From Bacteroidales bacterium (GTDB lineage Bacteria; Bacteroidota; Bacteroidia; Bacteroidales; UBA932): 62,121 bases of DNA. Of this stretch, positions 4,344 through 30,791 are shown piece by piece (position 1 is the first letter of the stretch; every line of letters starts with the position of its first letter). The DNA lies in contig JAGAKH010000119.1 in the NCBI GenBank assembly GCA_017625725.1, positions 1 to 62,121 of the forward strand, read 5' to 3'. The notes beneath the pieces were generated by a model that saw only the letters and a list, made by a program, of their open reading frames with translations, did not search any database and was not told the origin of the DNA. The position numbers and the translations under genes are program-made.

Positions 4344-4420
4344 ATACCGTCTTTGAATCACTTGACGGATTTGTCCATTTTCTTGAAATATTTGTCTATC
4401 GTGTCAGTTTTCCGTTGTAT

Positions 4421-4428
4421 TACCTTTG
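4421..4428 (+). promoter_or_regulatory. Promoter -7 element upstream of the GH127 gene
   Basis: TACCTTTG matches TAnnTTTG; initiation would be near 4435, about 32 bases before the ATG at 4467. The preceding gap (4344-4420) also has a weak CCGTC/GACGG hairpin at 4347-4368 that may end the previous transcript. Confidence 0.55.
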
Positions 4429-4466
4429 CAGGCATTGAATAACAACGAAAAAAACTGATAACCTCC

Positions 4467-6524
4467 ATGATTCCAGCCAATCTTTTGGGAAAGAAACTGC
4501 TGCTTGCGGTTTCTGTTATTGCGGCATCTGTCGTTACAGCTTGCACGCAGCAGCAGACAAATCAAAATTATTTGAACAATCCGGCACCTTTGCGTCCGAA
4601 CAGCTTCATTGAACTTCCATTGGGAAGCATCAAGGCTGAAGGATGGCTCAGGGAGATGCTCGTAAGTCAGGCAGAGGGTGCTACCGGTCATCTTGACGAA
4701 CTCTATCCTCAGGTGATGGGTGAACGAAACGGCTGGCTTGGCGGAGACGGTGACCAGTGGGAAAGAGGACCATATTGGATTGACGGTCTTCTGCCTTTGG
4801 CTTATATTCTGGATGATCAGAAACTTATCGACAAGACGACTCCTTGGATTGAATGGGCTCTTGCCAGCTCACAGGAGAGCGGACAGTTCGGACCGGCTAC
4901 CGATTATGCACCGGAGCCAGGTCTTCAGAGGGATAACTGTCAGGACTGGTGGCCTCGTATGGTAGTGCTCAAGATTCTCCAGCAGTATTATTCTGCAACA
5001 GGAGATGAGCGCGTTATCGAGCTTATGACGAACTATTTCCGTTATCAGCTCGAGAATCTGCAGGAGCAGCCTCTTGATAACTGGACTTTCTGGGCTCGTT
5101 ACCGCGGAGGTGACAACCTTATGTGTATCTACTGGCTTTATGGAATAACGAAGGAGGATTTCCTTCTTGACCTTGGAAAGCTCGTCTACGAGCAGACTGA
5201 GCCTTTCACCGAGATGTTCCTCGCCCACGACAAGCTTACCCGTGTAGGCTCAATACATAGCGTCAACCTTGCTCAGGGCATGAAGACTCCTATCGTCTAT
5301 TATCAGTTTGATCCTCAGCAGAAATATCTTGATGCCCTCGAGTGTGCCATCGACGATCTTGAAAAGTATCACGGATACCCTACAGGAATGTTCAGCGGTG
5401 ACGAGGCAATCCATGGCAACGACCCTACACAGGGTACAGAGCTTTGTACTATTGTGGAATATATGTTCTCTCTCGAGACCATGTACAAGATAACGGCAAA
5501 TCCACGTTTCGCTGAGATTCTTGAAAAGGTGGCATTCAATGCCCTTCCTACCCAGACTACCGATGATTATATGGCACGTCAGTATTTCCAGCAGGTCAAT
5601 CAGATAAAATCAGTGAAACGTCCTGCAAACTTTGACGTGAACCATTCAGGTCTCGATGCATGCTTCGGTCTTCTGACTGGTTATCCTTGCTGTACTTCCA
5701 ACATGCATCAGGGCTGGCCTAAGTTTACCCAGAATCTCTGGTATGCAACTCCTGACGGCGGACTTGCTGCTGTGATCTACTCTCCAAGCCGTGTCAATGC
5801 AAAGGTTGCAGACGGGGTTGACGTGACTTTTGTAGAAGATACGAAATATCCTTTCGAGGAGAAGATCTCCCTTAAGGTTGAGTCAATTGCAAGGCCGGCA
5901 TCGTTCCCTCTTGTCGTAAGAATTCCTGAATGGAGCCAGGCTACGGTAATATGTGTAAACGGAGACGAACTTGAGTGGGAGAAGGATCAGAATAATCTCG
6001 TCAAGATCAGCCGTGAGTGGAACGAGGGCGATTGCGTCACTCTTGAATTCACTCCTGAGATCAAGCTTTCAGTCTGGAAGGAGAACTCACGTGCAGTTGA
6101 GCGTGGACCGCTTGTGTATGCACTTAATGTGAAGGCAGAGGAGAAGAAGGTAATCAACGATGTGAATCCAGTGCAGCAGGGCCAGTTCTATTATGAGTAT
6201 ACCGCTGCATCACCTTGGAACTATGCCCTTATCCAGACACCGAAGGTCAAGTTCGATGAACACTATAAGGTGGATCTCAGCGGAACCGAAGGCGAACTTC
6301 TCAAACCGTGGACATTGGAAAATGCTCCTATCCGTATAACCACCAAGGGAGTCAGAGTCCTTAACTGGATGGAATACAATCAGATGGCAGGTCCTCTTCC
6401 ATACAGCTACATGTACGGTCTCCCTGTAAGTGAGGAGGTTGAGGAAATCGAGCTCATCCCTTATGGATGTACATTGCTCAGAATAGGACAGTTCCCTATC
6501 AAAGGACAGCATACAGCAGAATAA
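4467..6524 (+). CDS. GH127-family lipoprotein, beta-L-arabinofuranosidase-like
   Basis: A 685-residue glycoside hydrolase of the DUF1680 group (GH127, related to GH146), which removes terminal beta-L-arabinofuranose. The enzyme is an (alpha/alpha)6 barrel followed by beta-sandwich domains. Characterised members use a zinc-bound cysteine nucleophile. The expected ligands are visible: Glu325-Leu-Cys327 and the paired Cys408-Cys409 in a GYPCC motif, with Glu313 a plausible acid/base. A lipoprotein signal peptide ends at VVTAC (Cys26). Only uncharged residues follow the Cys, so a periplasmic anchor is more likely than surface display. It opens the utilization locus and has its own promoter, with the beta-sandwich lipoprotein 42 bases downstream. 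GH146-like specificity cannot be excluded. Confidence 0.85.
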   Translation: MIPANLLGKKLLLAVSVIAASVVTACTQQQTNQNYLNNPAPLRPNSFIELPLGSIKAEGWLREMLVSQAEGATGHLDELYPQVMGERNGWLGGDGDQWERGPYWIDGLLPLAYILDDQKLIDKTTPWIEWALASSQESGQFGPATDYAPEPGLQRDNCQDWWPRMVVLKILQQYYSATGDERVIELMTNYFRYQLENLQEQPLDNWTFWARYRGGDNLMCIYWLYGITKEDFLLDLGKLVYEQTEPFTEMFLAHDKLTRVGSIHSVNLAQGMKTPIVYYQFDPQQKYLDALECAIDDLEKYHGYPTGMFSGDEAIHGNDPTQGTELCTIVEYMFSLETMYKITANPRFAEILEKVAFNALPTQTTDDYMARQYFQQVNQIKSVKRPANFDVNHSGLDACFGLLTGYPCCTSNMHQGWPKFTQNLWYATPDGGLAAVIYSPSRVNAKVADGVDVTFVEDTKYPFEEKISLKVESIARPASFPLVVRIPEWSQATVICVNGDELEWEKDQNNLVKISREWNEGDCVTLEFTPEIKLSVWKENSRAVERGPLVYALNVKAEEKKVINDVNPVQQGQFYYEYTAASPWNYALIQTPKVKFDEHYKVDLSGTEGELLKPWTLENAPIRITTKGVRVLNWMEYNQMAGPLPYSYMYGLPVSEEVEEIELIPYGCTLLRIGQFPIKGQHTAE

Positions 6525-6566
6525 TACAACATCTTTATTTATAACCAACTAATCAAATAAAACATT

Positions 6567-7166
6567 ATGAAAAAGATTTTCTTTACATTGGCAATGGCTT
6601 CAATGGTAGCTTTTGCAGCATGCAACAAGGAAGACAACACAGGCGAGAACAACCAGCCAGAGGAACCAAAGGAGCAGGTATCTCGCGTATTCGAAGATTT
6701 CGAAGGTGAGGGTATGCTCAGCTGGACAGCTGCTGACGGATGCTCTTTCAAGGTTGTAGACAACCCTTCAAAGACTGGTATCAACACAACTGACAAGGTA
6801 GGTAACGTAACAGCAGGTGGTGCAAAGTGGGAGTTCACATGGAGCACAGGTTTCGGTGCAACTGAGGATTCATTCAATTTCGTAGACTTCTCTAAGGACG
6901 GTTACATCGTTAAGGTTGACGTTTACAGCTCTAAGGCAAACAGCCCTGTATATCTCAAGTTCGAAGGTGTTGATGTTCCTGCAGTTGAGATCACAACAGT
7001 TACTACTACAAAGGTTAACGAGTGGGAGACTCTCGAGTTCGACTATGAGCCTTATCAGATGGTTGACGGTGCTTACAAGAACTTCGTCATCCTCTTCGAT
7101 GCAGGTGTTGAAGGTGCTGGTGGAGAAGAGTTCTACTTCGACAACGTACGTCTTTGCAAGGAGTAA
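6567..7166 (+). CDS. Surface lipoprotein consisting of one beta-sandwich, carbohydrate-binding-like domain
   Basis: 199 residues: lipoprotein signal peptide with Cys19, an acidic linker, then a single domain (about 38-199). That domain recurs at the N-terminus of the three propeller proteins at 15949, 17527 and 19139. Shared landmarks are NPSKTGIN/NPKKEGLN, a GG(A/E)..(E/W)F.WS segment, a (V/M)YLK strand, VTTTK.(N/G)EWE.L.FD, and an ending (F/Y)(Y/W)FD(N/E). The pattern resembles family-11-type carbohydrate-binding modules. The residues after Cys19 (N-K-E-D) fit the Bacteroidota surface-export signal. Codon use is strongly biased toward a few codons, suggesting high expression, and a terminator follows. 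A glycan-capture role like SusE/SusF is inferred. Confidence 0.7.
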   Translation: MKKIFFTLAMASMVAFAACNKEDNTGENNQPEEPKEQVSRVFEDFEGEGMLSWTAADGCSFKVVDNPSKTGINTTDKVGNVTAGGAKWEFTWSTGFGATEDSFNFVDFSKDGYIVKVDVYSSKANSPVYLKFEGVDVPAVEITTVTTTKVNEWETLEFDYEPYQMVDGAYKNFVILFDAGVEGAGGEEFYFDNVRLCKE

Positions 7167-7190
7167 TCCTTCCTGATTAATGACAGATCA

Positions 7191-7228
7191 AGACCTGCTC
7201 CTCAGGGGCAGGTCTCATTTTTTTTATT
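7191..7228 (+). terminator. Rho-independent terminator after the beta-sandwich lipoprotein
   Basis: AGACCTGC (7191-7198) pairs with GCAGGTCT (7208-7215), followed by CATTTTTTTTATT. It separates the GH127/lipoprotein transcript from the regulator gene. Confidence 0.85.
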
Positions 7229-7235
7229 ATATTTG
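7228..7235 (+). promoter_or_regulatory. Promoter -7 element of the hybrid regulator gene
   Basis: TATATTTG matches TAnnTTTG and predicts initiation near 7242, 13 bases before ATG 7255. It overlaps the tail of the preceding terminator. Confidence 0.55.
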
Positions 7236-7254
7236 TCAATATAAGTCGAAACTG

Positions 7255-10200
7255 ATGGCTGCAAACAACAGATTCTTCAATTCTTTCGTGTGTCTTCGTC
7301 GTGTATTGGCGTTGCTGATATTGTTTTTCCAATTCATTCCCATCTCAGCAGTTGAAAATGTCCATTTCAGGCATATAGCTGAAAAAGAGGGACTAAAGCA
7401 CACATGGATTCTGCATATAACCCGTGACAGCAAAGGATATATGTGGTTTTCTACCATATACGGTGCATACCGTTATGATGGTTCCGATTTTGAAGAATAT
7501 GTCTTCATGGGCGATGATAATAATCAGGCTGCCAGAGTGAATTTTGTCTATGAGGACTCAGAGGGATGCATTTGGTTCGGAACAAGCAGTGGCCTGTATC
7601 GTCACAATCCGGAAACAGGTCAGCAGGTTCATTATACGACAGGACGTTACAGCCCGTCACGTCTGAGTTCGACCTATATTGACGACATGCTTGAAGATAT
7701 GGATGGAAACTTCTGGATCTCAGGCAATGGAGGAGTCGACCTCCTGAAAAAAGACGGCCAGGTCAGGAATTATGCTTTGGGAACTGTCAGAACCCTGCTG
7801 ATGGATTCGAGAAGCAATATATGGGCAGGTACGGCAGGAGGCCGTCTTCTTCGTATGAACAGGGATGAAGCAGACTTCGAACGTGTGCAGATTCCTCTAG
7901 AAGGAAGAACTGAAATACGCGACCTTTTCCAGGATTCAGGTAATGACATATGGATATCCACCACGGGCAAGGGACTGATACGTTACGTCTTGCCGCAGAT
8001 GGAATTCATTACCTATGATTTTGACAGCGGTAATCTCCCTAACGATATGGTCCGTCAGGTTGTCGAAGATGGTGAGGGGATGATCTGGGCTGCAACCGAG
8101 CAGGGCCTTGTGCGGATATCACCCGATGGAAGTGATTTCATCACAAGCCATGATGATAATCTATGGACGCTTAACGACAACGCAATCTACAGCCTGTACT
8201 CTGATGAGGATGATAACCTTTGGGTCGGAACCTTCTTCGGTGGTGTGAATGTGATGTACCGTCACTCGAACATGTTTGACTTCCTTCTGGCAGGTTCGGA
8301 AGGTTATTCTCAGGACAGCAAGGTCGTAAGTTCGATTGTCAGAAACGGAAACAAGCTTTATATTGGTACGGAAAATGACGGAGTATATGTCATTGGAGAA
8401 GGGGGTGGAAGGCCTGTTACCATAAATTCGTCCAACAGTAATCTTGCCAGCGACAACATCCACTCCATCTGTATTGATGATGCCGGGAACATGTGGCTGG
8501 GAAGCTATTATGGCGGTCTTTTCATGAGACGTCCCGGTTCCGGATATTTCAGGAACTTCAAGACCGATTCCATAAAAGGGGCAAGACTGTCAAGCAATCA
8601 TGTATATTGCGTATATCAGGACAGCAGGGGTAATCTTATGATAGGCACCCAGTATGGTGGCCTGTACAGGTATGATTATTCCACCGGACAGCTTAGGTAT
8701 TTCCATGAGGATCTGCCTAAGAATATATTTGTCTGGGATATACATGAGGACAAGGCTGGGGATATCTGGCTTGCATGTCATGGAGAGGGAATCTGGTGCA
8801 TGTCAGCATCAGACGACTATGAACCGAGGTTATTGGAAACTGGAAAGACAAAGCTTTATGTTACATTCTGTGAACTGGATGACGGACGTATGCTCGCCGG
8901 TACGGAAAAGGAGGGGCTGGTGTGCATAGATCCTCTGACCAAGGAGGTCAGGAACATCACTATGTCTGACGGACTGCCGGATAATACGGTATACGGAATA
9001 TTGCAGGACGGCCAGGGAAATATATGGATGTCATCCAATGCTGGTTTATGCAGGACAGATCCGACTTTTTCATCGTTTACCAATTATACGATTGCTGACG
9101 GCCTGCCTACTAACAGGTTCAATTATAATGCAGCGGAAAAGATTGACGGAAAACTCTACTTCGGCAGTATCAATGGCGTTGTCGTAGTGGATCCGGAGAA
9201 AGAGATGCCTGTTGACAAATATCGTCCGATCAGATTCAATAATCTGTATGTGAACAATATAAAGCAGAAACTGGGTGAAAGCGAGGTCCTGCATGCCGAT
9301 CTTAACAGTTGTCCGGAAATCAGACTTAAGCATTGGCAGAACACCATAGCAGTGGACTTTACATGTAATGTCTTCGGTTACAGTTCCGAGCAGTCCTTTG
9401 CATACAGGATGACGGGACTTGACGATGACTGGCATATACTTGGAGCCCAGAAAAGAATTGATTTTATCGGACTGAAACCCGGGAAATATACTCTTATGGT
9501 TGCCGGAGCGGACGGCAGCGAGATTCTTGATAATGAAGTCCAGCTCAAGATCAGAATCATTCCTGTCTGGTGGCAGAGTACCATTGCAAAGATATGTCTT
9601 GTACTCCTTGTACTATTTGTGGCGATATGGCTTATCTGGCTCTTCTTCCAGTCATCGAAGCATAAGCATGAGCTTGAACTTGAAAAGCTTGCAAGGGAGA
9701 GTGAAAAGGAAATCAATGAATTGAAACTCCGATTCTTTGTAAATATCTCTCATGAATTCAAGACCCCGCTGTCTTTGATCCTGGGACCGGTCGAACAGTT
9801 CATCCACGGCAGGGTGAGTGAAGAGAACACCAGCAGATATTTCAATATCATAAAGAGGAATGCGGACAAGCTTCTGGCCCTTATCAATGAACTTCTGGCT
9901 TTCCGTGAAATACAGTTCGCTACCTTGAAGACATCCAAGGTACGCGTTTACGATGTCATCTCGAAGGTTCTTTCCAGATATGACTGGCTGTTTGAAGATA
10001 AGGGGCTGACTGTGTCTGTGGATGTACCGGAAGATATATCGGTCGATGCGGATCCGCATAAGCTGGAAAAGGTTTTTGACAATCTGTTGTCAAATGCCTA
10101 TAAACACACTTCCAAGGGTGATTCGGTCACATTGTCCGCTGTCCGTCATCCGGATTATATATCCCTTGTGGTGGAGGATACCGGCTGTGGCATCCCTGAG

Positions 10201-11280
10201 GAGGAACTGCCTTATATATTCGAGAGGTTCTTTTCCGGCCGTTCATATGACATGTATTCATCCGGTGTGGGCCTCTCGTATGTCAAGTCTCTGGTAGAGC
10301 AGCATGGGGGAACCATTTCGGCGTCTTCGGAATTAGGAAAATACACCAGAATCGAAATGCACATGCCTCATACGGTCAAGAATATGGAGACTGACGAAGT
10401 CAAGAACGAGGAGTACAAGAAGGAATATGAAAAGATGAGGAAGCTCGAGGCAGAGGCGGTGGATCCCGATTTTGATAAGGAGGAATACAAGAAACTGGCA
10501 GCCGAGACCGTCGTGCTTATAGTTGAAGATGACCATACCATGCGCGACCTTCTTGTAGACCATCTTGGCCGAAGGTATATGGTCATGTGTGCGGATAATG
10601 GAGAGGTAGCTGCGAAGATTGTAAATGAATCGAAGGTGGATATCGTCATCAGTGACGTGATGCTTGCAGGTGGAATGACAGGTTTTGAATTATGCCATTT
10701 CATAAAGAACTCCGTGGAGACAAGTCATATCAAGGTCATTCTCATGACAGTCCTTTCGGAGCAGGACTATAAATTCCAGGGCTATCATGCGGGAGCCGAC
10801 GCTTATATGTTGAAGCCTTTTGCATTTTCTTTGCTTGAACTCAGAATCAGAAATCTTCTGGTCAATGCGTATAAGATGAGGGAAAGCTACAAAATAGAGA
10901 TTGACATGTCAAATGTCGAGATCAAGGCATCCAATACGGATGAACAGCTGATCCGCAAGGTGGTGGATGTGATATTCGACCATCTGTCTGAATCGGAGTT
11001 CAGTGTGGAAGATCTCTGTCTTATGGTCGGCATGAGCAAGGCAACCCTATACCGTAAGCTGAAAGCCATCACCGGTCAGTCTACAAATGAATTCATGCAG
11101 AATACCAGACTGAAATATGCGGCAAGAATCCTGAGTGAGACAGACAGGCCTGTTTCTGATGTCGCCTATGAGGTAGGCTTCTCTGATCCATATTATTTTT
11201 CACGTGCATTCAAGAAACTGTTCGGAAAATCCCCTAAACAATGGAGACAGGATTCAAGCGAAAATAGTGCATGTAATTGA
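7255..11280 (+). CDS. Hybrid two-component system sensor/regulator (HTCS) of the polysaccharide utilization locus
   Basis: 1341 residues joining sensor and regulator in one inner-membrane protein. In order: signal anchor (about 8-28), two periplasmic seven-bladed propellers built from Reg_prop repeats (W..T..GL/GVY motifs), a Y_Y_Y domain (about 690-770), a membrane helix (about 779-803), a HisKA domain with phospho-acceptor His833 (NISHEFKTPL), an ATPase domain with DTGCGIP, a receiver with phospho-acceptor Asp1134, and an AraC-type HTH pair at the C-terminus. Such proteins bind an oligosaccharide breakdown product in the periplasm and activate the adjacent susC/D operon. The frame continues upstream to 7180, but that stretch is the preceding terminator, so ATG 7255 is the start. 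Confidence 0.95.
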   Translation: MAANNRFFNSFVCLRRVLALLILFFQFIPISAVENVHFRHIAEKEGLKHTWILHITRDSKGYMWFSTIYGAYRYDGSDFEEYVFMGDDNNQAARVNFVYEDSEGCIWFGTSSGLYRHNPETGQQVHYTTGRYSPSRLSSTYIDDMLEDMDGNFWISGNGGVDLLKKDGQVRNYALGTVRTLLMDSRSNIWAGTAGGRLLRMNRDEADFERVQIPLEGRTEIRDLFQDSGNDIWISTTGKGLIRYVLPQMEFITYDFDSGNLPNDMVRQVVEDGEGMIWAATEQGLVRISPDGSDFITSHDDNLWTLNDNAIYSLYSDEDDNLWVGTFFGGVNVMYRHSNMFDFLLAGSEGYSQDSKVVSSIVRNGNKLYIGTENDGVYVIGEGGGRPVTINSSNSNLASDNIHSICIDDAGNMWLGSYYGGLFMRRPGSGYFRNFKTDSIKGARLSSNHVYCVYQDSRGNLMIGTQYGGLYRYDYSTGQLRYFHEDLPKNIFVWDIHEDKAGDIWLACHGEGIWCMSASDDYEPRLLETGKTKLYVTFCELDDGRMLAGTEKEGLVCIDPLTKEVRNITMSDGLPDNTVYGILQDGQGNIWMSSNAGLCRTDPTFSSFTNYTIADGLPTNRFNYNAAEKIDGKLYFGSINGVVVVDPEKEMPVDKYRPIRFNNLYVNNIKQKLGESEVLHADLNSCPEIRLKHWQNTIAVDFTCNVFGYSSEQSFAYRMTGLDDDWHILGAQKRIDFIGLKPGKYTLMVAGADGSEILDNEVQLKIRIIPVWWQSTIAKICLVLLVLFVAIWLIWLFFQSSKHKHELELEKLARESEKEINELKLRFFVNISHEFKTPLSLILGPVEQFIHGRVSEENTSRYFNIIKRNADKLLALINELLAFREIQFATLKTSKVRVYDVISKVLSRYDWLFEDKGLTVSVDVPEDISVDADPHKLEKVFDNLLSNAYKHTSKGDSVTLSAVRHPDYISLVVEDTGCGIPEEELPYIFERFFSGRSYDMYSSGVGLSYVKSLVEQHGGTISASSELGKYTRIEMHMPHTVKNMETDEVKNEEYKKEYEKMRKLEAEAVDPDFDKEEYKKLAAETVVLIVEDDHTMRDLLVDHLGRRYMVMCADNGEVAAKIVNESKVDIVISDVMLAGGMTGFELCHFIKNSVETSHIKVILMTVLSEQDYKFQGYHAGADAYMLKPFAFSLLELRIRNLLVNAYKMRESYKIEIDMSNVEIKASNTDEQLIRKVVDVIFDHLSESEFSVEDLCLMVGMSKATLYRKLKAITGQSTNEFMQNTRLKYAARILSETDRPVSDVAYEVGFSDPYYFSRAFKKLFGKSPKQWRQDSSENSACN

Positions 11281-11314
11281 TACGATAATCCATCACTAAA
11301 TTCTGCCTCCCGGA

Positions 11315-11322
11315 TAACTTTG
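11315..11322 (+). promoter_or_regulatory. Promoter -7 element of the susC/susD operon
   Basis: TAACTTTG matches TAnnTTTG; initiation near 11329 leaves a leader of about 40 bases before the SusC start. No -33 match is seen, as expected for an activator-dependent promoter. Confidence 0.55.
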
Positions 11323-11369
11323 CTAGGTCTGTATTTGGACAGGAATAAACTAACCAAATTATATCAGCT

Positions 11370-14294
11370 ATGACTAAAGCAAATCTTATCCGTAAGTTTT
11401 TTGTACTTGCTGCGATGGTTTTGTGTACTTTGATGTCAAATGCACAGAATATTGCGGTCAAGGGTACGGTAATCGATCAGGCCGGCAACCCCCTGATTGG
11501 AGTAGCTGTCATCGAGAACGGCACGACAAACGGTGTCATGACACTTGAAGACGGCTCTTATTCTATCAATGCTCCTGCAGATGCCGTTCTGGTTTTTTCA
11601 TGTATGGGTTATACAACCAGAGAGATTCCGGCATCGGACTCCAAGGCCCTCAAGGCAGTTGTTCTTGATGAGGAGAATCTGATGATTGACGGAACCGTCG
11701 TAATCGGTTACGGAACAATCCGCAGAAGCACTCTTGCCAACTCGGTGACAACCGTCAGAAGTGAAGATTTCGTTCAGGGAGCTGTGGCTTCTCCTCTTCA
11801 GATGCTTCAGGGAAAGGTGGCAGGTCTTTCAGTAGGAACATCTTCGGGAGACCCTAACGATAACGGTCTTCAGATGATGCTTCGTGGTGTGTCTACGCTC
11901 ATGGCCAGCCAGGAACCTCTCATCGTCATCGACGGAATCACAGGCGGCAGTCTCAATAATGTGACCCAGGACGACATCCTTTCGATTGATGTCCTCAAGG
12001 ATGGTGCAGCTGCAGCCATCTATGGTACACAGGGTAACAATGGTGTGATCCTCATCACCACCAAGAGAGGCAAGCGTGAGAACCAGTCGATCCTCTACCA
12101 TGGCTATGCGTCAGTGGAAAGCATCTCCAACCAGATAGATGTCTTCACTCCTGAGCAGTACCGCAATCTGAAGGAGCTCTCGGAAGGAGCATTCTCTCCA
12201 CTCGACAACGGTGCGTCCACAAACTGGGGAAGCGAGGTCTTCCGTCCTGCAATCAATCACTATCATAACCTTTCTATCAACGGTGGTGGAGAGCGTTCCA
12301 ACTATTATGCAAACATCTCCTATAACAGTCGCCAGGGTATCATGAAGGGATCAGGACTCGACAAACTCAATATTTCATTGGGAACGAGCCAGTCCTTCTT
12401 CAAGGATAAGCTTAAGGTGAGTGCTAACCTCAGCAATATCATTGCAAACGGAACACAGGTGTCTGAGGAAACCGTATATCTCGGATCCCTGACAGCCAAT
12501 CCTACATCTCCTGTCTATAATCCTTCGACAGGTGCATATTCTATCTTCGCAGAAGTCCCTAACGCAGTCCGTTCAATCAACGAATTCCGTGAGGATGTAA
12601 ATTGGGATGAGATGGCTGCGACAGGAAAGATCACTTATTCTCCGATCGAGTGCCTTACATTCAATGCCGTAGGAGGTATGAAGCTCTTCTCGCATTTCAA
12701 CGGAGCCTATGCTACAAAGGACTTCGATGAGAACCAGATGAACGGCCAGGCATGGCGTAACACCAGCATGAACGTCACATACAATGGCGAACTTTATGGC
12801 CAGTACAGCAACCGTTTCGGAAAGCATGACGTTACAGCAGTAGCGGGATACAGCTATTTCAGCTATAACGCTCAGGATTTTCATGCATATAACTATGATT
12901 TCCCTACGGATTCCTTCGAGTATAACAACATGGGCCTTGGTCTCGCACTCAAGGAAGGTAATGCGACAATGAGTTCAAGCCGTCAGATGAACAAGCTCAT
13001 CTCATTCTTCGGCCGTGTGAACTACAGCTACGATGAAAGATACATCCTTGCCCTTTCTCTTCGTGAAGACGGCTCATCAAAGTTCGGTCCTAACAACAGA
13101 TGGGGAACATTCTGGTCAGTTTCCGGAGCATGGCGTATTTCTCAGGAAAGCTTCATGCAGAATGCAGACTGGCTTGATGAACTCAAGCTCAAGGCAAGTT
13201 ATGGTGTGACAGGTGTTGAGCCGTCAAGTCCATATCTTTCCCAGATGATCTATAACTACTCATCACCTGTGTCGATGGGTGGAAAATACATCTGGACGGT
13301 TTCACCTGCGGCAGTAGCTAACCCTGACCTCAAATGGGAGGAGAAGCATGAGTATAACCTCGGAATCGATTTCTCAATGTTCAAGTCCCGTTTCAGCGGA
13401 TCATTGGATTTCTATCTGAGAGATACACATGACCTTCTTTACAGCTACAGCGTGCCTATGCCACCTAACCTTGCATCGACTATATATGCCAATGTAGGTT
13501 CTATTTCCAACAGGGGAGTCGAGCTCTCCCTCTCTGGCGAAGTCGTAAGGACAAGTGATTTCACACTCAATCTTTCAGGAAACGTTTCTTACAATGAGAA
13601 CAAGATCCTCAGCCTTTCCAACGACCGCTACCAGCGTGACTTCATGGAAGTCGGAAGCACAGGTGCACCGGTTCAGAAGTCGACTCACCTCGTTAAGGAA
13701 GGTGGTGCAGTAGGAGACTTCTACGGTTGGGAAAGTACAGGAATCAAGAAGAACGGAGCCTGGATCATCGAGGGAGGTTCTTACGGAAGCGAAGAATCCC
13801 GCAAGATCATCGGAAACGGTATTCCTAAGATCAATGCAGGTCTTTCTGTAAACATGGCTTATAAGGGCTTTGACCTCTCGTTCTCTCTCAGAGGAGCCTT
13901 CATGTACCAGATCCTCAACCAGTACCGTATGCTTTGGGAAACATGGCAGAAGGGACAGCAGTTCAACTACCCGGTTTCAATACTTGACAAGCCGTATGGA
14001 GGAGAGTATGGAATCAAGGCTACCACTTCACCGGCTTATGTCAGCTACTATGTTGAGGATGGTGATTTCGTGAAGCTCGACAACGTGACTTTTGGTTACA
14101 ACTTCAAGTTCAAGCCGGATTCTGCAGTTAAGACTCTCAGACTCTATCTCTCAGCTCTTAACCTCTTCACAATCACCGGTTATAAGGGAATCGACCCAGA
14201 GGTCAACTTCGGTGGACTTGCTCCTGGAATCGACTACACCTCAACCTATCCTACCACACGTTCCGTATCATTCGGAGTTAAGCTTGGATTCTAA
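11370..14294 (+). CDS. SusC-like TonB-dependent outer-membrane transporter
   Basis: 974 residues, a usual length for SusC proteins. A signal peptide ends at about residue 25 (SNAQ). A carboxypeptidase-regulatory-like domain follows (about 29-105), then the TonB box region (TVVIGYGT), the plug domain (about 115-235), and a 22-strand barrel ending in the expected aromatic residue (GVKLGF). It imports oligosaccharides across the outer membrane using TonB energy. SusD, the lid that closes over this channel, begins 23 bases downstream. No N-terminal secretin/STN domain is present, so control is by the neighbouring HTCS rather than by an anti-sigma pathway. Confidence 0.96.
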   Translation: MTKANLIRKFFVLAAMVLCTLMSNAQNIAVKGTVIDQAGNPLIGVAVIENGTTNGVMTLEDGSYSINAPADAVLVFSCMGYTTREIPASDSKALKAVVLDEENLMIDGTVVIGYGTIRRSTLANSVTTVRSEDFVQGAVASPLQMLQGKVAGLSVGTSSGDPNDNGLQMMLRGVSTLMASQEPLIVIDGITGGSLNNVTQDDILSIDVLKDGAAAAIYGTQGNNGVILITTKRGKRENQSILYHGYASVESISNQIDVFTPEQYRNLKELSEGAFSPLDNGASTNWGSEVFRPAINHYHNLSINGGGERSNYYANISYNSRQGIMKGSGLDKLNISLGTSQSFFKDKLKVSANLSNIIANGTQVSEETVYLGSLTANPTSPVYNPSTGAYSIFAEVPNAVRSINEFREDVNWDEMAATGKITYSPIECLTFNAVGGMKLFSHFNGAYATKDFDENQMNGQAWRNTSMNVTYNGELYGQYSNRFGKHDVTAVAGYSYFSYNAQDFHAYNYDFPTDSFEYNNMGLGLALKEGNATMSSSRQMNKLISFFGRVNYSYDERYILALSLREDGSSKFGPNNRWGTFWSVSGAWRISQESFMQNADWLDELKLKASYGVTGVEPSSPYLSQMIYNYSSPVSMGGKYIWTVSPAAVANPDLKWEEKHEYNLGIDFSMFKSRFSGSLDFYLRDTHDLLYSYSVPMPPNLASTIYANVGSISNRGVELSLSGEVVRTSDFTLNLSGNVSYNENKILSLSNDRYQRDFMEVGSTGAPVQKSTHLVKEGGAVGDFYGWESTGIKKNGAWIIEGGSYGSEESRKIIGNGIPKINAGLSVNMAYKGFDLSFSLRGAFMYQILNQYRMLWETWQKGQQFNYPVSILDKPYGGEYGIKATTSPAYVSYYVEDGDFVKLDNVTFGYNFKFKPDSAVKTLRLYLSALNLFTITGYKGIDPEVNFGGLAPGIDYTSTYPTTRSVSFGVKLGF

Positions 14295-14317
14295 ACCGGA
14301 AATAAAAATTTGATAGT

Positions 14318-15952
14318 ATGAAAAAGATAATCATTGCAATATCAGCTGTCTTGATTTCGGCTGCATCCTGCCTGAATCTTGATGAGGTCGTATATTCAAA
14401 GATGACAGCGGAAGAATATTATGCCAACTTCTCCGAGGCCGATGTCCCGGCTGCACTTGGCAAGCTTTATTCTGATCTTCGCCTTCTCTATGCCGGCTGG
14501 GATGTACATAAATCGGGTTGCTGGCACTACACCAATGAAGAGGTCGGTGACACATGGGTGACTCCTAAGAGAGGAGGTTCATGGTACGATGCTGGTGTGT
14601 ATTACCGCCTGAATCAGCATCAGTGGGAATGGTCGGATGCACATATGCTCAACAACTGGCGTTATGCCTACAGCAGTATCAATAACTGCAACCGCCTTAT
14701 GTATGAATTCCGTACGGCTCCAGTAAAGGACACGTTGAGCATGATGTCGGAAATCAGAGTAGCACGTGCATATTGGTACTATAACCTTTGTGACATGTAC
14801 GGAAATGTTCCTATCCAGACACGTTACGATGTGCCTGAAGGTTACCTTCCAAAGACCGCTCCAAGACAGAAAGTGTTCGATTTTGTGGTTAGCGAGATCG
14901 AGGAATGTCTTCCTAACCTTCTTGTAAAGGAATACGGACGCTGGGACCAGGGTGCTGCCAAGATGCTTCTTGCCAAATGCTACCTCAATGCAGAGAGCTG
15001 GGGTGTTACGGTAGAGGATAATGCCTGGGATAAGGTGATCAAGCTTTGTGATGAAATCATCAATTCGGGCAAGTATTCACTTGAGTCCGATTACAAGGCA
15101 CCTTTTGTCACAAATAACGAGAATTCCAACGAAATCATCATGGGAATCATCAATGATGAGGTCTATGACGCTAGTGTTCCTTTCCTTCTCCATCTGTGCA
15201 CAATGCACTGGAAATATTGCTATCACGGAAACACTGTAACTCAGTACTGGGGAGGCTGCTGTGCTACTCCTGAGTTCGCGATGAGCTATGATGAGGATGA
15301 CCTCCGTTATGAAAAGTCTTGGTTCGAGGGACAGCTTTATGACAATACAGGTGCTTACACAGGAACCCCTGGTACACCTATGACATGTGACCCATGGGAT
15401 TCCCGCGACAAGGGCAAGCTTCTCATCCACACCAAGGAGATTCCTATCTATCTCACCGAGCAGGGAGTTCCGGATGAGATCCCTACAACAGGAGAAGGTC
15501 CTGGAGTACGTATGCAGAAATATGAGATCCGTACCGGAGCTCTCAACCGTCTGAGCAATGACTTCGTGCTCTTCCGTTATGCTGATGTCCTCTTCATGAA
15601 GGCCGAGGCTCTGTATTGGAAGAATTCGGGCACTGCGACACAGGAGGTATGCGATCTTATCAATCAGGTAAGGTCTCGTGCATTCAGCAACTTTACTGAT
15701 GACAAGAAGGTTACTGTCGGACAGCTTGATGACGACCGCTTCCTTCTCGAATACGCATGGGAGTTCTGCCAGGAAGGTCACCGTCGCCAGCAGCTCATCC
15801 GTTTCGGACAGTTCCTCACAAAGACATGGTTCCTGCATGACACCCCTACAAATGACCCTAACCGTCTTCTGTTCCCGATCCCTCGTGAGGAAATGCTTGC
15901 GAATCCGGAACTGAAACAGAATCCAGGTTATTCGACATTAAAAGAAGAATGA
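14318..15952 (+). CDS. SusD-like surface glycan-binding lipoprotein (RagB/SusD family)
   Basis: 544 residues. The lipoprotein signal peptide ends at Cys18 (SAASC). The remainder shows the SusD/RagB pattern: an N-terminal helical tetratricopeptide-like core with (L/A)(R/Y)A..Y..L...YGNVP near residues 147-165, aromatic-rich loops for sugar stacking, and a C-terminal LLEYAWEF..EGHRRQ.LIRFG..L segment typical of the family, ending in PIP..E...NP.L.QNPGY. It forms the binding lid over the SusC channel encoded immediately upstream. Its stop codon overlaps the start of the next gene (ATGA), which implies translational coupling with the propeller enzymes. Confidence 0.96.
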   Translation: MKKIIIAISAVLISAASCLNLDEVVYSKMTAEEYYANFSEADVPAALGKLYSDLRLLYAGWDVHKSGCWHYTNEEVGDTWVTPKRGGSWYDAGVYYRLNQHQWEWSDAHMLNNWRYAYSSINNCNRLMYEFRTAPVKDTLSMMSEIRVARAYWYYNLCDMYGNVPIQTRYDVPEGYLPKTAPRQKVFDFVVSEIEECLPNLLVKEYGRWDQGAAKMLLAKCYLNAESWGVTVEDNAWDKVIKLCDEIINSGKYSLESDYKAPFVTNNENSNEIIMGIINDEVYDASVPFLLHLCTMHWKYCYHGNTVTQYWGGCCATPEFAMSYDEDDLRYEKSWFEGQLYDNTGAYTGTPGTPMTCDPWDSRDKGKLLIHTKEIPIYLTEQGVPDEIPTTGEGPGVRMQKYEIRTGALNRLSNDFVLFRYADVLFMKAEALYWKNSGTATQEVCDLINQVRSRAFSNFTDDKKVTVGQLDDDRFLLEYAWEFCQEGHRRQQLIRFGQFLTKTWFLHDTPTNDPNRLLFPIPREEMLANPELKQNPGYSTLKEE

Positions 15953-17502
15953 TGAGATACATATTATTACTGGCGTCTGCGGCCGTTTTGGCCGCAGGCT
16001 GCCAGTCTTCATCTGAAGATGTAATCCAGTTCATGGATTATGCATCCTTTGAGGATGACAGGGTCGAGATGACTTTCCATGCCGGGAATGATTCCATGTT
16101 ATGCGATGAAGTTGACAACCCTAAAAAAGAGGGCTTGAATGTCACTGCACGTTGTGGACGTGTCATCAGCGGCGGTGGAGAGAATGAGTTCGTATGGTCG
16201 GAACCGTTCGGAAGAAACTTTGACTTTACGGCAAATCCACCTGTCTTCAAGATGATGGTCCTCGCACCTGAAGCAGGTGCCCGTGTGTGGATGAAGCTTG
16301 AACCGGAGAACTTCAACAGCGGTATAGCGGCAGTCGAGGTAAAGAACGTAAGGACCACAAAGGCAGGAGAATGGGAAGAACTCGTCTTTGACTTTTCAGA
16401 GTTTGCTCCGAGAAGCAGCTGGTACCGCAAGATTGTCATCATGTTCGATGCCGGCAATACATCCTTTGACAAGGAGTGGTATTTCGATGAGATAAAGGGT
16501 CCGAGTGATGACCTTACCAAGATCAGTCTTTTCAAACGCTACGAGGGCAATCCTGTATTCTATCCGGAAGGATCCGGAAACTGGAGGGATTCCCATATTG
16601 CCAATGCCAGCATAATCTCACCGGCAGACTCTCCTGACGGGAACTGGTGGATGTATGTGAGAGGCAGCGGACACACTCCTGATTATCATGATCAGATCGG
16701 TCTGTTTACCCAGCCGGCAGATGATTTCAAACCATTCGGACCTTGGAACGAGTATAAGGGAAATCCTGTGATTCCTCATGGACCGGAAGGCTCTTATGAC
16801 GAATGGCACCTTCTTGACTGTGCTGCAGTAAAGGGCCCGGACGGAACTGTCTATGTATATTATAAGGGACGTATGCACAATGATAATGGAAGCATGGACC
16901 CGACAAGCTGCATAGGCTGTGCTTATTCAAAGGACGGCGGATACACATTCACGAAGATGGACAGACCATGGAAGAAGAATGCCGGACCGTCAGATGCTGT
17001 ATATCACGACGGTAAATTCTATATCTTCTGCGGACCGAGGGTCTACGTGACTGAAGATCCTCTCAGCTACGAGACGGCTCAGATGTATAAGATTCTCAAT
17101 CTTGGCGACGGCCCGGCAGAGTTTGACAGGGCATCCATATGGGGCTCGATGGTCTTCCGTCTTGAAGGTGTGGACAAGTGGTTCCTGGCCTACCAGGGAA
17201 TGTCCATCAGAAACGATTTCCCTGACAGGTTTCATGTGGCGTATTCCGATGACCTGATCAACTGGACCAAGGTCGATAATGATCAGCCTCTTTATGGACG
17301 CGGACAGGCAGGAGAATGGGATCAGGGAGGAATGTGGTGCCCTGAAATCATCGAGCACGAAGGAATGCTCTACCTATACTATGAAGGATGGGGCTTCAAG
17401 GGGCATGTCAAGGACCGTAATGCTCCATATTTCGGCGGCAACTCGTCAATCGGTGTCGCATACGCATCGAAGGAGGATTTCCTGAGATGGTGCGGACTTT
17501 AA
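15949..17502 (+). CDS. Lipoprotein with beta-sandwich domain plus GH43/GH130-like five-bladed propeller (paralog 1)
   Basis: 517 residues. A lipoprotein signal (LAAGC, Cys18) precedes a beta-sandwich domain (about 30-185) of the type found alone at 6567. A propeller domain (about 195-517) follows, with repeated blades such as GNWWMYVRG, VYVYYKG and MLYLYYEGWG. By analogy with GH43/32/117/130 propeller enzymes, three acidic residues conserved in all three paralogs are likely catalytic: Asp290 (LLD), Asp349 (SDAVYH) and Glu466 (PEIIEHE). The substrate is unknown. The start overlaps the SusD stop by four bases. The next paralog follows after 24 bases. It is probably a surface or periplasmic glycosidase acting on the imported glycan. 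Confidence 0.75.
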   Translation: MMRYILLLASAAVLAAGCQSSSEDVIQFMDYASFEDDRVEMTFHAGNDSMLCDEVDNPKKEGLNVTARCGRVISGGGENEFVWSEPFGRNFDFTANPPVFKMMVLAPEAGARVWMKLEPENFNSGIAAVEVKNVRTTKAGEWEELVFDFSEFAPRSSWYRKIVIMFDAGNTSFDKEWYFDEIKGPSDDLTKISLFKRYEGNPVFYPEGSGNWRDSHIANASIISPADSPDGNWWMYVRGSGHTPDYHDQIGLFTQPADDFKPFGPWNEYKGNPVIPHGPEGSYDEWHLLDCAAVKGPDGTVYVYYKGRMHNDNGSMDPTSCIGCAYSKDGGYTFTKMDRPWKKNAGPSDAVYHDGKFYIFCGPRVYVTEDPLSYETAQMYKILNLGDGPAEFDRASIWGSMVFRLEGVDKWFLAYQGMSIRNDFPDRFHVAYSDDLINWTKVDNDQPLYGRGQAGEWDQGGMWCPEIIEHEGMLYLYYEGWGFKGHVKDRNAPYFGGNSSIGVAYASKEDFLRWCGL

Positions 17503-17526
17503 CAGCAATATAAATAGGATTACATT

Positions 17527-19110
17527 ATGAACAGACATTTATATCTGGCCGGTCTTTTGACAATGATGCTCCTGGCATCTGGAGCATGTGAGAAGTCACC
17601 GATGGATACTCCTGATGACCAGACACAAGTGGATATGAAAAACAATTTCCTGAACCGCTGTAATTTTGACAATATTAAACTGGAATTTCATCCTACAGGG
17701 GTGCAGTATGCTGTTGTCAACAATCCTCAGAAGACCGACGGCAACATGTCAAGGAAATGCGGCAAGGTGGTGTCCAATGGAGGAGGCAACGAATTCATCT
17801 GGTGTGATCCTATGCCGAGGAAACTTGACTTTACCCGCAATGCCCCTATCTTCAAGATGAAGGTACTTGCTCCAAAAGCTGGAGCCAAGGTTTCCTTAAA
17901 GATAGAACATCCGCACGATTATTCCCTCAAACCATTGGCTATAACGGATGTCGTGACAACCAAAGCCGGTGAATGGGAAGAACTTGTCTTTGATTTTACC
18001 GCCCTTGCACCGGAGAACAACTTCTACCAGAAATTCGTTATTTCATTTGACGGTGAAGGGCGTCAGGCCGGGGATGTCTGGTATTTTGACGATATAATGT
18101 GTCCTGATGATGATTTGACTGACATATGTCTGTTCCAACGTTATGAGAACAACCCTGTCTTCAAGCCACAGGGCGGTCCAAGCTGGAGAAACCAGCACAT
18201 GGCCAATGCCGGTATCCTGTCACCAGACAAGTCACCTGACGGCAACTGGTGGATGTATCTGCGTGGCAGTGGAGACTCTCCTTACTATTGTGACCAGATA
18301 GGCCTTTATCAGCAGACCGCTTCTGATTTCAAGCCTTTCGGCCCATGGAATGAGTACAGGAACAATCCGGTACTGCCTGTCGGAGCCCAGGGCAGCTTTG
18401 ATGACGGATTCCTTCTGGATACTGCTCCGGTTGTTGGAGAGAATGGGGTCGTCTATGTCTATTACAACGGCAACAACAGGGATAGGAGCAAGCATGGCCT
18501 CTGTGTAAGATATTCTACAGACGGCGGTTATACCTTTGAAGGTATAGATGCTCCGGTTCTGGTCGGAAAGGGATGCAGTGACGCTGTGTATCATGACGGT
18601 AAATATTATATATATTATGGCGGCGGCAATCCGTGCAGGCTTTATGTTACCGTGACTGACAATCCTTTGTCATTCGAAGGAGCCCAGACTTACGAGACCA
18701 TTCCTATCGGCGGCGGTCCTTCGAACTTCGACTCTTATGCTGTCAACGGTTCGATGGTCTTCCGTCTCAAGGGAGTGGACAAGTGGTTTGCATCCTACCA
18801 GGGCAGCAGCAATGTTTATGACTTCCCGGACCGTTTCCATATCGCAGTTTCAGATGACCTGATCCATTGGACAAAGATTGAAAATGACAAGCCTCTATTC
18901 ACGAGAGGTTCACGCGGACAGTGGGATCAGGGTGGTATCTGGTTCTGTGAAATCATAGAACATGAGGATATGCTGTATCTTTATTATGAAGGTTGGGGAA
19001 GAGTAGGATATGTCGAGAATCGTGACCAGCCTTATTTCCAGGGCCGTTCATGCATAGGTGCTGCATCAGCATCGAAAGAGGAGTTCCTTAAATGGTGCGG
19101 GCTCAAGTAG
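17527..19110 (+). CDS. Lipoprotein with beta-sandwich domain plus GH43/GH130-like five-bladed propeller (paralog 2)
   Basis: 527 residues, same layout as the gene before it: lipoprotein signal (SGAC, Cys21), beta-sandwich domain (about 40-195), propeller (about 205-527). The candidate catalytic acids are Asp298 (LLDTAP), Asp352 (SDAVYH) and Glu475 (CEIIEHE). It keeps the near-invariant DFPDRFH(I/V)A.SDDLI(H/N)WTK and G.WDQGG.W blocks. It differs in loop content, for example an extra GGGNPCR segment around residue 360 and QNYFQR-type changes in the first blade. These differences suggest altered substrate specificity rather than simple dosage. All three paralogs end in F(L)(K/R/E)WCGL(K). Confidence 0.75.
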   Translation: MNRHLYLAGLLTMMLLASGACEKSPMDTPDDQTQVDMKNNFLNRCNFDNIKLEFHPTGVQYAVVNNPQKTDGNMSRKCGKVVSNGGGNEFIWCDPMPRKLDFTRNAPIFKMKVLAPKAGAKVSLKIEHPHDYSLKPLAITDVVTTKAGEWEELVFDFTALAPENNFYQKFVISFDGEGRQAGDVWYFDDIMCPDDDLTDICLFQRYENNPVFKPQGGPSWRNQHMANAGILSPDKSPDGNWWMYLRGSGDSPYYCDQIGLYQQTASDFKPFGPWNEYRNNPVLPVGAQGSFDDGFLLDTAPVVGENGVVYVYYNGNNRDRSKHGLCVRYSTDGGYTFEGIDAPVLVGKGCSDAVYHDGKYYIYYGGGNPCRLYVTVTDNPLSFEGAQTYETIPIGGGPSNFDSYAVNGSMVFRLKGVDKWFASYQGSSNVYDFPDRFHIAVSDDLIHWTKIENDKPLFTRGSRGQWDQGGIWFCEIIEHEDMLYLYYEGWGRVGYVENRDQPYFQGRSCIGAASASKEEFLKWCGLK

Positions 19111-19138
19111 TTTGTAAACTTATTAATAAATCGGTTAT

Positions 19139-20740
19139 ATGAAATGGTCGGCAATCATTCTGACTGCCGTGATGATTTTCTCCTCATGCGTCAAGAACGC
19201 AGGAGGAGAAATCTCATCAGGTGACTCTCAGAAACCTGAGACAGAAGTTCCGGATACAGGTCACGTGCAGGAACCTGCAGATTCAACTGTCATGACTATA
19301 GTGAACTTTGAGACAAGCTTCCTGACTTTTCATGAGGCAGGTGGTGATCTGGAGTATTCCATTGTCTCAAATCCAGTTAAAGACGCAGTCAACGCTTCCA
19401 GACGTTGCGGACTTGTCGTATCAGGAGGGTCACAATGGGAGTTCCTGTGGTCTGAACCATACGGAAAGAACTTCGATTTCACTGCCAATCCTCCGGTTTT
19501 CAGGATGAAGGTGCTTTCACCTCGAAAAGGTGTCAAGGTCTATATGAAGCTGGAATCTTCCGATTATCCCTCTGTTGCCCCTCCTAAGGAAGTCCAGAAT
19601 GTTGTCACGACAAAGGAAGGCTGCTGGGAGGATCTGGTCTTTGATTTCCGAAGTCTGGATCCGGCTTCTAACCGCTACAATAAATTTGTACTTCTTTTCG
19701 ATGCAGGCGGAACAGGCAAAGGTGAGGAATGGTATTTTGATGAAATACGTGTCCCCGACGATGACCTCACAGAAATAAGTCTCTTCAAACGCTGGGAAGG
19801 CAATCCTGTACTCAGTCCTGTAGATGGACCGGATGACTGGATGAACACTCATATTGCAAATGCAGCTGTAATTGGTCCGGAACACTCGATCGACGGCAAC
19901 TGGTGGATGTATGCACGTGGAGGAAACAACAGGAACGGAAGCAACGAGCAGATCGGAGTCTTCACTCAGAAGGCAGAAGAATTCAGTCCGTTCGGACCTT
20001 GGATACCTTATGAGGGCAATCCGGTCATTGCAAACGGACCGAAAGGTTCGTATGACGAATGGAGGGCTCTTGACAGTACGCCTGTCGTCGGCAAGGATGA
20101 TGTGACCTATCTTTACTATAAGGCAAGACCTTCCGATGGATCAAGCAGCACAGCTCTTGCCTATTCGACAGACGGTGTCAATTTCACGAAGCTTCCGCAG
20201 CTGTGGAAGAAGAATTCAGGTCCGACAGATGCCGTCTATCATCAGGGTATGTATTATATATTTCTTGGTGATGAGGTATATGTGACAGATGATCCTCTTT
20301 CTTCGGAGAATGCCCGGGTCTATCCTACCATAACTCCCGGTGGAGCTCCTTCAAATTTCGACGACAAGATATTCTTCGGCAACATGACCTTCCGACTCAA
20401 AGGAGTCGACAAATGGTTCATGGCCTATCAGGGAAGTGCATCGCATTGGGATTTTCCTGACCGTTTCCATGTTGCTGTTTCTGACGACCTGATCCATTGG
20501 ACCAAGGTGCAGAACGATCAGCCTTTCTTTTCGCGAGGCAAGGCCGGCGAATGGGACCAGTGCGGAATCTGGTTTCCAGAAGTCATTGAACATGAGGACA
20601 TGCTTTACATGTACTATGAAGGCTGGGGCAAGGATGGATATATTGAGGACAGAAACAAGCCATACCTCGACGGAAATTCATGCGTGGGCATTGCAATCGC
20701 GTCGAAAGATGCTTTTCTTGAATGGTGCGGATTGAAATAG
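19139..20740 (+). CDS. Lipoprotein with beta-sandwich domain plus GH43/GH130-like five-bladed propeller (paralog 3)
   Basis: 533 residues. The lipoprotein signal ends at FSSC (Cys17), followed by an unusually long Pro/Glu/Ser-rich linker (about 18-50), the beta-sandwich domain (about 52-205) and the propeller (about 213-533). Candidate catalytic acids are Asp312 (ALDSTP), Asp364 (TDAVYH) and Glu481 (PEVIEHE). The linker would hold the catalytic part further from the membrane than in paralogs 1 and 2. It is the last gene of the locus and converges on der with only six bases between stops. No terminator hairpin is visible. Confidence 0.75.
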   Translation: MKWSAIILTAVMIFSSCVKNAGGEISSGDSQKPETEVPDTGHVQEPADSTVMTIVNFETSFLTFHEAGGDLEYSIVSNPVKDAVNASRRCGLVVSGGSQWEFLWSEPYGKNFDFTANPPVFRMKVLSPRKGVKVYMKLESSDYPSVAPPKEVQNVVTTKEGCWEDLVFDFRSLDPASNRYNKFVLLFDAGGTGKGEEWYFDEIRVPDDDLTEISLFKRWEGNPVLSPVDGPDDWMNTHIANAAVIGPEHSIDGNWWMYARGGNNRNGSNEQIGVFTQKAEEFSPFGPWIPYEGNPVIANGPKGSYDEWRALDSTPVVGKDDVTYLYYKARPSDGSSSTALAYSTDGVNFTKLPQLWKKNSGPTDAVYHQGMYYIFLGDEVYVTDDPLSSENARVYPTITPGGAPSNFDDKIFFGNMTFRLKGVDKWFMAYQGSASHWDFPDRFHVAVSDDLIHWTKVQNDQPFFSRGKAGEWDQCGIWFPEVIEHEDMLYMYYEGWGKDGYIEDRNKPYLDGNSCVGIAIASKDAFLEWCGLK

Positions 20741-27520: not shown

Positions 27521-27541
27521 ATTACTTAAATATTATATAAT

Positions 27542-30777: not shown

Positions 30778-30791
30778 AAATATATATCATT

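Follow-up and report, generated by a model that had tools for sequence, protein, structure and literature searches.

A predicted Bacteroidales polysaccharide utilization locus encoding three paralogous sandwich–propeller lipoproteins beside a GH127-type enzyme

A 62,121-nt stretch of DNA from a Bacteroidales bacterium of probable animal-gut origin, contig JAGAKH010000119.1 of assembly GCA_017625725.1 (79.7% complete) and hereafter called the window, carries a locus in which a domain of about 160 residues, probably a beta-sandwich, is used four times. It makes up most of a small lipoprotein, P0001, and it forms the N-terminal part of three paralogs, P0002, P0003, and P0004, each of which continues into a predicted propeller. 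The locus also encodes an adjacent SusC/SusD pair, a hybrid two-component sensor-regulator (HTCS), and carbohydrate-active enzymes, all recognized by Pfam, and thus it is a polysaccharide utilization locus (PUL), an uncommon form of a familiar locus type.

We lean toward the following explanation. SusC and SusD would import a glycan fragment, the HTCS would sense that fragment and turn the genes on, and the glycoside hydrolase family 127 (GH127)-type enzyme P0005 would take off one kind of residue. P0002, P0003, and P0004, each predicted to combine a glycan-binding sandwich with a five-bladed propeller, would act as exo-type, probably inverting, glycosidases on branches of the same glycan, with each paralog devoted to a different linkage. 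P0001 would serve as a small extra glycan-binding protein. Which known family lies nearest to the propellers, GH43 or GH130, is a question inside this explanation.

A sandwich domain used four times

The four genes lie on the + strand. P0001 (6567..7166) holds its sandwich, delimited by domain homology, at 6684-7163. Profiles and alignments divide P0002 (15949..17502) into a sandwich (16030..16518) and a propeller (16519..17499), and the corresponding domains lie at 17647-18120 and 18121-19107 in P0003 (17527..19110) and at 19289-19771 and 19772-20737 in P0004 (19139..20740). Among the window proteins, P0001 matches P0004 by blastp at E 1e-28 and P0002 at 8e-22, and 34 columns are invariant across all four sandwich domains. 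The common domain is therefore far beyond chance, and the original prediction that the lipoprotein gene at 6567 shares a domain with the N termini encoded from 15949, 17527, and 19139 is borne out in its coordinates as well. A profile of the four proteins matches exactly four places in the genome of origin, namely, the genes of P0001–P0004.

The sole clearly significant Protein Data Bank (PDB) match of the sandwich profile is 8qx6 (E 4.1e-16; the next match has E 0.27). This 165-residue entry is called a "PKD domain-containing protein" and, judged by name and length, is devoid of a propeller, unlike P0002–P0004. We found no mention of 8QX6 in the open literature, and a search of it for CBM102–CBM107 was equally empty. 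Matches to two carbohydrate-binding module (CBM) families in Pfam fall below the cut-offs (CBM_35_2, 21.2 versus 23 bits; CBM_4_9, 13.5 versus 25.9 bits). Together, 8qx6 and these subthreshold matches suggest the sandwich fold. Profile comparison of both domains with known families, one part of the check proposed for the original prediction, thus yielded neither a clear GH subfamily nor a known CBM.

At E 1e-6, the sandwich profile matches 12 of 398 genomes of the family: the seven that have the propeller and five others. Of the latter, G354, G367, G369, and G381 carry the sandwich at the C-terminal end of PKD-type lipoproteins; two of these proteins (L126 and L135) exceed the Pfam PKD cut-offs, and two (L125 and L128) fall just below them. 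G367 additionally holds a multidomain repeat protein (L127) with a sandwich match, and the match in G393 is a 207-residue lipoprotein-like frame (L124). The PKD lipoproteins resemble surface glycan-binding proteins. Because the domain stands alone in a PUL lipoprotein, shares a chain with probable enzymes elsewhere, and forms the C terminus of PKD lipoproteins, glycan binding is our best guess for its role.

An old triplication with a fixed domain partner

P0002–P0004 are mutually 51-57% identical over their aligned lengths, and their propeller parts are 55-62% identical. Along with the Pfam matches of HTCS, SusC, and SusD, these values agree with the earlier description of a utilization locus with a triplicated gene. 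Using the propeller alone as a query, we found 24 members: the three in the window, nine in three close relatives of the locus (L005, L006, and L007), and 12 in six other genomes. The sandwich immediately precedes the propeller in 24 of 24 members. Thus, the domain pairing had been correctly noted in the three window proteins, and any notion that it is peculiar to this locus is ruled out by the 21 outside members, all of which have it.

A tree of 26 propellers groups the first, second, and third copies of the window, L005, L006, and L007 by position, with support of 82/93 for the first-copy group (not starred; 84% of bootstrap trees), 100/98 for the second, and 99/98 for the third. Because each position clusters with its counterparts, the triplication is older than the split of these genomes. 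Each copy set has its own fixed residue in 14 propeller columns, and 125 columns are invariant in all 12 proteins. These fixed differences and the long separation fit a division of labor among the paralogs, without proving it: different jobs would suit copies kept apart since before the genomes split.

The Pfam scan covered P0002–P0004 and 10 of the 21 outside members, leaving 11 further members unscanned. Five of those 10 (L042, L043, L045, L046, and L048:7094) carry a SASA esterase domain at a position further N-terminal (E 1.4e-43 to 7.5e-34). In G688, one fused protein (L041, 7965-10073) has a tandem double sandwich before the propeller; the extra sandwich thus comes either as a stand-alone protein or fused in tandem. 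A plasmid search with P0002 returned 15 Rhizobium records; among the matches listed, identity is 27-28% over 44%.

Placement of the propeller

The propeller fold is suggested by profile matches to GH43, GH130, and GH117 proteins, to which the homology is distant. Pfam and profile–profile comparison rank the nearest families differently. For profile–profile comparison by hhalign, we assembled 21 GH43 proteins from related genomes (28 loci, themselves part of the matches, were extracted, and seven atypical ones were put aside) and 19 GH130 proteins (16 of 20 loci extracted plus three from a phylum search). GH130 and GH43 score 76.9 against one another.

Pfam favors GH43. P0002, P0003, and P0004 pass PF04616 narrowly (35.0, 38.2, and 32.6 bits versus a cut-off of 32.2), as do eight of the 10 outside members scanned (best, 55.2 bits for L044; below the cut-off, L041 with 28.7 and L048:7094 with 30.5), and for the window proteins GH43 ranks above GH130. 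The propellers could, then, be divergent GH43 enzymes of an unnumbered subfamily that use the usual Asp/Asp/Glu triad to hydrolyze arabinofuranosides or xylosides. Also consistent with that idea is the hhalign score of 100.2 obtained when the profile is doubled or recut before blade 4. We nonetheless consider it unlikely. The Pfam pieces are out of phase, with residues 426-486 aligned to profile positions 33-85 and residues 249-375 to positions 73-197. In native order, the hhalign scores are 69 and 65.5, from pieces with conflicting blades, under the 106 and 92 reached by GH130, and 100.2 requires that a blade be moved or dropped.

The GH43 catalytic residues point the same way. We take the pKa-modulating Asp to lie on GH43 blade III, the general-acid Glu on blade IV, and the general-base Asp on blade I. 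In the longest native piece, the first aligns with D290 (P0002 numbering throughout). The general-acid Glu has no counterpart in that alignment, where it meets a gap immediately ahead of Pro347, the phase itself being uncertain, and the general-base Asp lies outside both leading alignments, with no acid at the expected place by eye. Thus, the P0002–P0004 propellers differ from GH43 in barely passing its cut-off and in having a clear counterpart for only one of three catalytic positions. A plain GH43 identity was not accepted, given the conflicting phases and the unmatched Glu. A protein named CbE1Xyn43-l has likewise been described as "GH43-like," outside CAZy, and in the GH43_62_32_68_117_130-like CDD group; it differs from the window propellers in having its own GH43 Asp/Glu dyad and a C-terminal CBM6 (PMC11022575).

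Profile–profile comparison favors GH130. In native order, hhalign gives 106 in a shifted register and 92 for a collinear one. Two stand-alone propellers from genome G702, L050 and L064, which have no sandwich, bridge the clade to GH130 and GH43, and adding them raises these scores to 112.7 and 110.7. The collinear alignment then spans 277 columns with a probability of 98.4, and the best pieces reach 98.3-98.5%. Controls remain far lower: 22.8 for the reversed profile and at most 19.3 for 20 shuffles against GH130, and at most 23.6 for reversed or shuffled profiles against GH43. Bridge protein L050 passes Pfam GH130 (49.5 versus 26 bits) and reads LDPA where GH130 proteins have D-P-R, and the collinear alignment matches N219 and R238 to the Asn and Arg of GH130 blade I.

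One could accordingly picture the propellers as GH130-type enzymes, possibly glycoside phosphorylases, in which D290 would be the catalytic Asp of GH130, which we take to be the Asp of the (E)DPR motif. We find this about as improbable as a GH43 identity. The window proteins stay well below the Pfam GH130 cut-off (PF04041; 11.4 versus 26 bits, with P0003 alone listed) and the NCBIfam GH130 equivalogs (at most 24.2 of 450 bits). The counterpart of the catalytic Asp is D290 or D284, depending on one gap, and the Arg of the motif is absent. The shifted-blade piece scores as high as the collinear one. Finally, secreted lipoproteins would presumably meet little phosphate. The window proteins thus depart from GH130 in missing its cut-offs, in a DPR motif reduced to D, and in the N-terminal sandwich.

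Circular permutation with respect to either family was tried with doubled and rotated profiles. The GH43 score rises from 69 to 100.2, and the GH130 score is about 105-106 either way. We do not claim permutation, as the collinear GH130 alignment about equals the shifted one after the bridge proteins are added.

Searches of the PDB are similarly divided. A 21-row profile matches 9fj8, a 1,2-beta-oligomannan phosphorylase that we take to be a GH130 member, best (E 2.5e-12), followed by 3r4y (1.8e-11); a 24-row profile matches 3r4y best (E 9.2e-10). We assume that 3r4y, 3p2n, and 4ak5, as well as 4u6b and 4u6d, belong to GH117. By eye, GH117 has similar RG..G-W/Y-D...PE and YYKG stretches, and the matches come as two pieces that follow one another in opposite order in the two proteins. 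GH159 is a five-bladed propeller family, with arabino- or galactofuranosidase activity and a GH43-type triad (D19/D142/E190), as described in PMC9278983. Its structure, 7ZEI, is not among the 41 PDB matches of the 24-row profile at E ≤1; the presence of 7ZEI in the database was unchecked.

We conclude only that, by these comparisons, the propeller represents a clade of its own within the GH43/32/62/68/117/130-like superfamily, with a slight leaning toward GH130. The earlier view that it falls cleanly within no known family agrees with this outcome: GH43 is just passed in shifted blades, and the GH130 cut-offs are missed.

Conserved residues

The propeller of P0002 holds D290, D349, and E466, which the original prediction named as invariant acids. 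They are invariant among the three window paralogs. Across 24 members, and with counts taken from 21 chosen propeller columns, D290 is kept in 22, D349 in 21 (Glu twice, Ser once), and E466 in 17. The proposal that the three form a catalytic triad was rejected, as E466 is replaced in seven of 24 members (Ala four times, Ser twice, Asp once).

The residues invariant in 24 of 24 members include, from these chosen columns, D284, D393, D423, D458, E469, E479, R238, R427, H429, R451, R490, and Y494. Bridge proteins L050 and L064 also retain D284, D393, D423, D458, and E479. Such invariant charged residues are the kind of set expected of an enzyme. By eye, D284, D393, and D458 sit at similar points in three blades, each ahead of the first strand, and they may be structural. 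Because L050 has LDPA where GH130 proteins have DPR, D290 appears to be the best single catalytic candidate.

A different possibility is that the propellers are nonenzymatic and, together with the sandwich, capture glycan. Acids at several of the usual catalytic positions are missing or vary, and three copies accompanied by a separate binding lipoprotein would be well suited to that role. We strongly doubt this idea. The 24 propellers, 43-92% identical to the first, share many invariant residues, both charged and aromatic, and five members carry the esterase on the same chain, a fusion that we count in favor of enzymes.

The GH127 neighbor and the putative substrate

Directly upstream of P0001 lies the gene of P0005 (4467..6524, + strand). 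The earlier identification of a GH127 neighbor is confirmed by Pfam (PF07944, 83.2 bits versus a cut-off of 24.9, E 2.4e-23; PF20736, E 6.4e-18). PDB relatives are 5mqo (E 1.2e-15) and 4qjy (E 3.4e-11), both of which were deposited under the name beta-L-arabinofuranosidase. P0005 preserves the E-x-C and Cys-Cys columns of 5mqo, which we presume to represent the Zn-bound Glu and Cys residues of GH127, and so the enzyme is probably active.

Members of GH127 act on more than beta-L-arabinofuranose, and aceric acid is also among their substrates. We take 5mqo to be BT1003, an aceric-acid hydrolase, and the NCBIfam model nearest to P0005 is "aceric acid hydrolase," although its score of 91.7 bits is far under the cut-off of 950. 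GH127 is encoded beside the operon in six of six genomes with the window's type of locus (the window, L005, L006, L007, G332, and G688), which points to a glycan containing a GH127-type residue. Our most likely guess for the substrate, made from the GH127 gene, is a side chain that contains arabinofuranose or aceric acid. An arabinofuranose-containing glycan, as first suggested, has the names of the PDB relatives in its favor; given the wider range of GH127 and its absence from the second class of loci, described below, it is possible rather than shown.

Relatives and distribution

A scan of a genome collection with two peptide patterns gave three loci, from 124 pattern matches, in Bacteroidales metagenome-assembled genomes: L005 and L006, with 92% identity in the best segment, and L007, with 64%. 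In all three, the lipoprotein, HTCS, SusC, SusD, and three fused genes occur in the same order, and coordinates place the GH127 gene upstream of, and adjoining, the lipoprotein gene. For L007, the lipoprotein and first fused gene were placed by reading frames and domain matches, and SusD was recognized by eye. The regulator frame of L007 (2156-4942) has 928 residues versus 1366 in the window HTCS, which it matches in two pieces; it looks as if the kinase part were gone, through an assembly error or a real deletion.

The same PUL type is conserved in L040 and L041. In G332 (L040), GH127, the lipoprotein, the HTCS in two frames, SusC, SusD, and two fused genes are present. In G688 (L041), GH127 is followed directly by an HTCS frame, with no lipoprotein gene between them, and there is one fused protein.

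The propeller clade is rare and patchy in the sampled genomes. Within the order, one of 295 genomes, the window's own, matches at E 1e-10. Within the family, 46 of 398 genomes match at E 0.001; seven, including the window's own, fall below 1e-80, and the best of the other 39 is 1.9e-8. Across the phylum, 14 of 395 genomes match at E 1e-6, and G702 is the only one with a near-full-length match beyond the window's own (L050, E 5.6e-47). In G702, the sandwich gave no match at E 1, in a search that had no positive control.

Other members occur in a second class of loci with different neighbors. In L042 (3313-8899) and L045 (12066-17523), DUF5107-TPR and DUF6259 proteins adjoin the fused gene. L048 encodes a DUF5107-TPR protein (3735-7073) next to a sandwich–propeller gene, and DUF6259 proteins occur in the loci of members without SASA (L155, 12245-14365, in G585; L156, 14599-16656, in G545). 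In L043, of the two neighbors scanned, one has no match and one is an FAD oxidoreductase. We found no open literature, judged by title, on DUF5107 or DUF6259 in this setting.

Organization of the locus

Eight same-strand genes run from GH127 through P0004, with gaps of 42, 13, 89, 23, -4, 24, and 28 bases. Beyond those already placed, they encode the HTCS (listed at 7180..11280, with Reg_prop, HisKA, HATPase_c, Response_reg, and HTH_18 by Pfam), the SusC-like TonB-dependent transporter (11370..14294; PF00593, E 1.9e-20, with PF13715 and PF07715), and the SusD-like lipoprotein (14318..15952; PF07980, E 1.2e-26), whose gene overlaps that of P0002 by 4 bases. In GH127, P0001, SusD, and the three fused proteins, the N terminus is a hydrophobic stretch that ends in Cys at residues 17-26 (residue 26 in GH127, after a signal-like stretch, and residue 19 in P0001). 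They thus start like lipoproteins, and a surface or periplasmic place seems probable for them.

A terminator-like hairpin (7191..7215, + strand; 11 pairs, loop of 3, T run) lies just 3' of the P0001 gene. It has the longest stem among the eight terminator-like sites in the window, a number that shows no excess over shuffles (mean 12.6); a sigma-70 promoter scan likewise gave 25 sites versus 24.8 expected, with no excess. Because the hairpin falls within the 5' end given for the HTCS frame, translation probably does not begin at 7180 as listed, and an inner ATG such as that at 7255, which fits a signal peptide, is a better candidate. The hairpin also suggests that GH127 and P0001 may share a transcript of their own, apart from the genes from the HTCS onward.

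Elsewhere in the window, a 1411-residue protein (32205-36440, + strand) joins a glycogen synthase (PF05693, E 9.6e-95) to a glycogen phosphorylase (PF00343, E 6.8e-33). Around it lies a glycogen cluster that includes an alpha-amylase family protein, a debranching enzyme, a glycosyltransferase, and GH57 (25508-32111). A 634-residue protein (60207-62111, + strand) has no Pfam match at E 1e-5. A PHROGs comparison gave nothing useful. We found no description of the PUL itself in the open literature; CAZy and subscription papers lay outside the search.

Perspective

Several observations weigh against the explanation that we favor. Pfam recognizes no endo-acting enzyme in the locus, so the polymer must either be short or be degraded elsewhere. 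No GH127 occurs in the fetched stretches of L042-L048, beside the second-class relatives. The residue nearest to the GH130 catalytic Asp, D290, is Gly in both L047 proteins, and hhalign pairs D284, not D290, with that Asp. Against a placement nearer GH130 stands the GH43 score of 100.2, which comes close to that of GH130 when blades are moved or omitted.

A bolder proposal, to which we give appreciable though minority credence, is that the propeller clade constitutes a new glycoside hydrolase or phosphorylase family, five-bladed and with a catalytic apparatus unlike those of GH43, GH117, and GH130. The apparatus would be built from some of the invariant residues D284, D393, D423, D458, E479, R427, and H429; every member would have a new carbohydrate-binding sandwich; and the target would perhaps be an acetylated glycan side chain.

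In either case, the locus draws attention to what appears to be an uncharacterized enzyme clade. This clade keeps one domain partner throughout, has a sister group fused to an esterase, and is encoded here in a compact operon. Four small proteins would suffice to test its activity, its substrate, and what the sandwich does. Placing this family would aid the annotation of five-bladed propellers that Pfam marginally calls GH43 or GH130.

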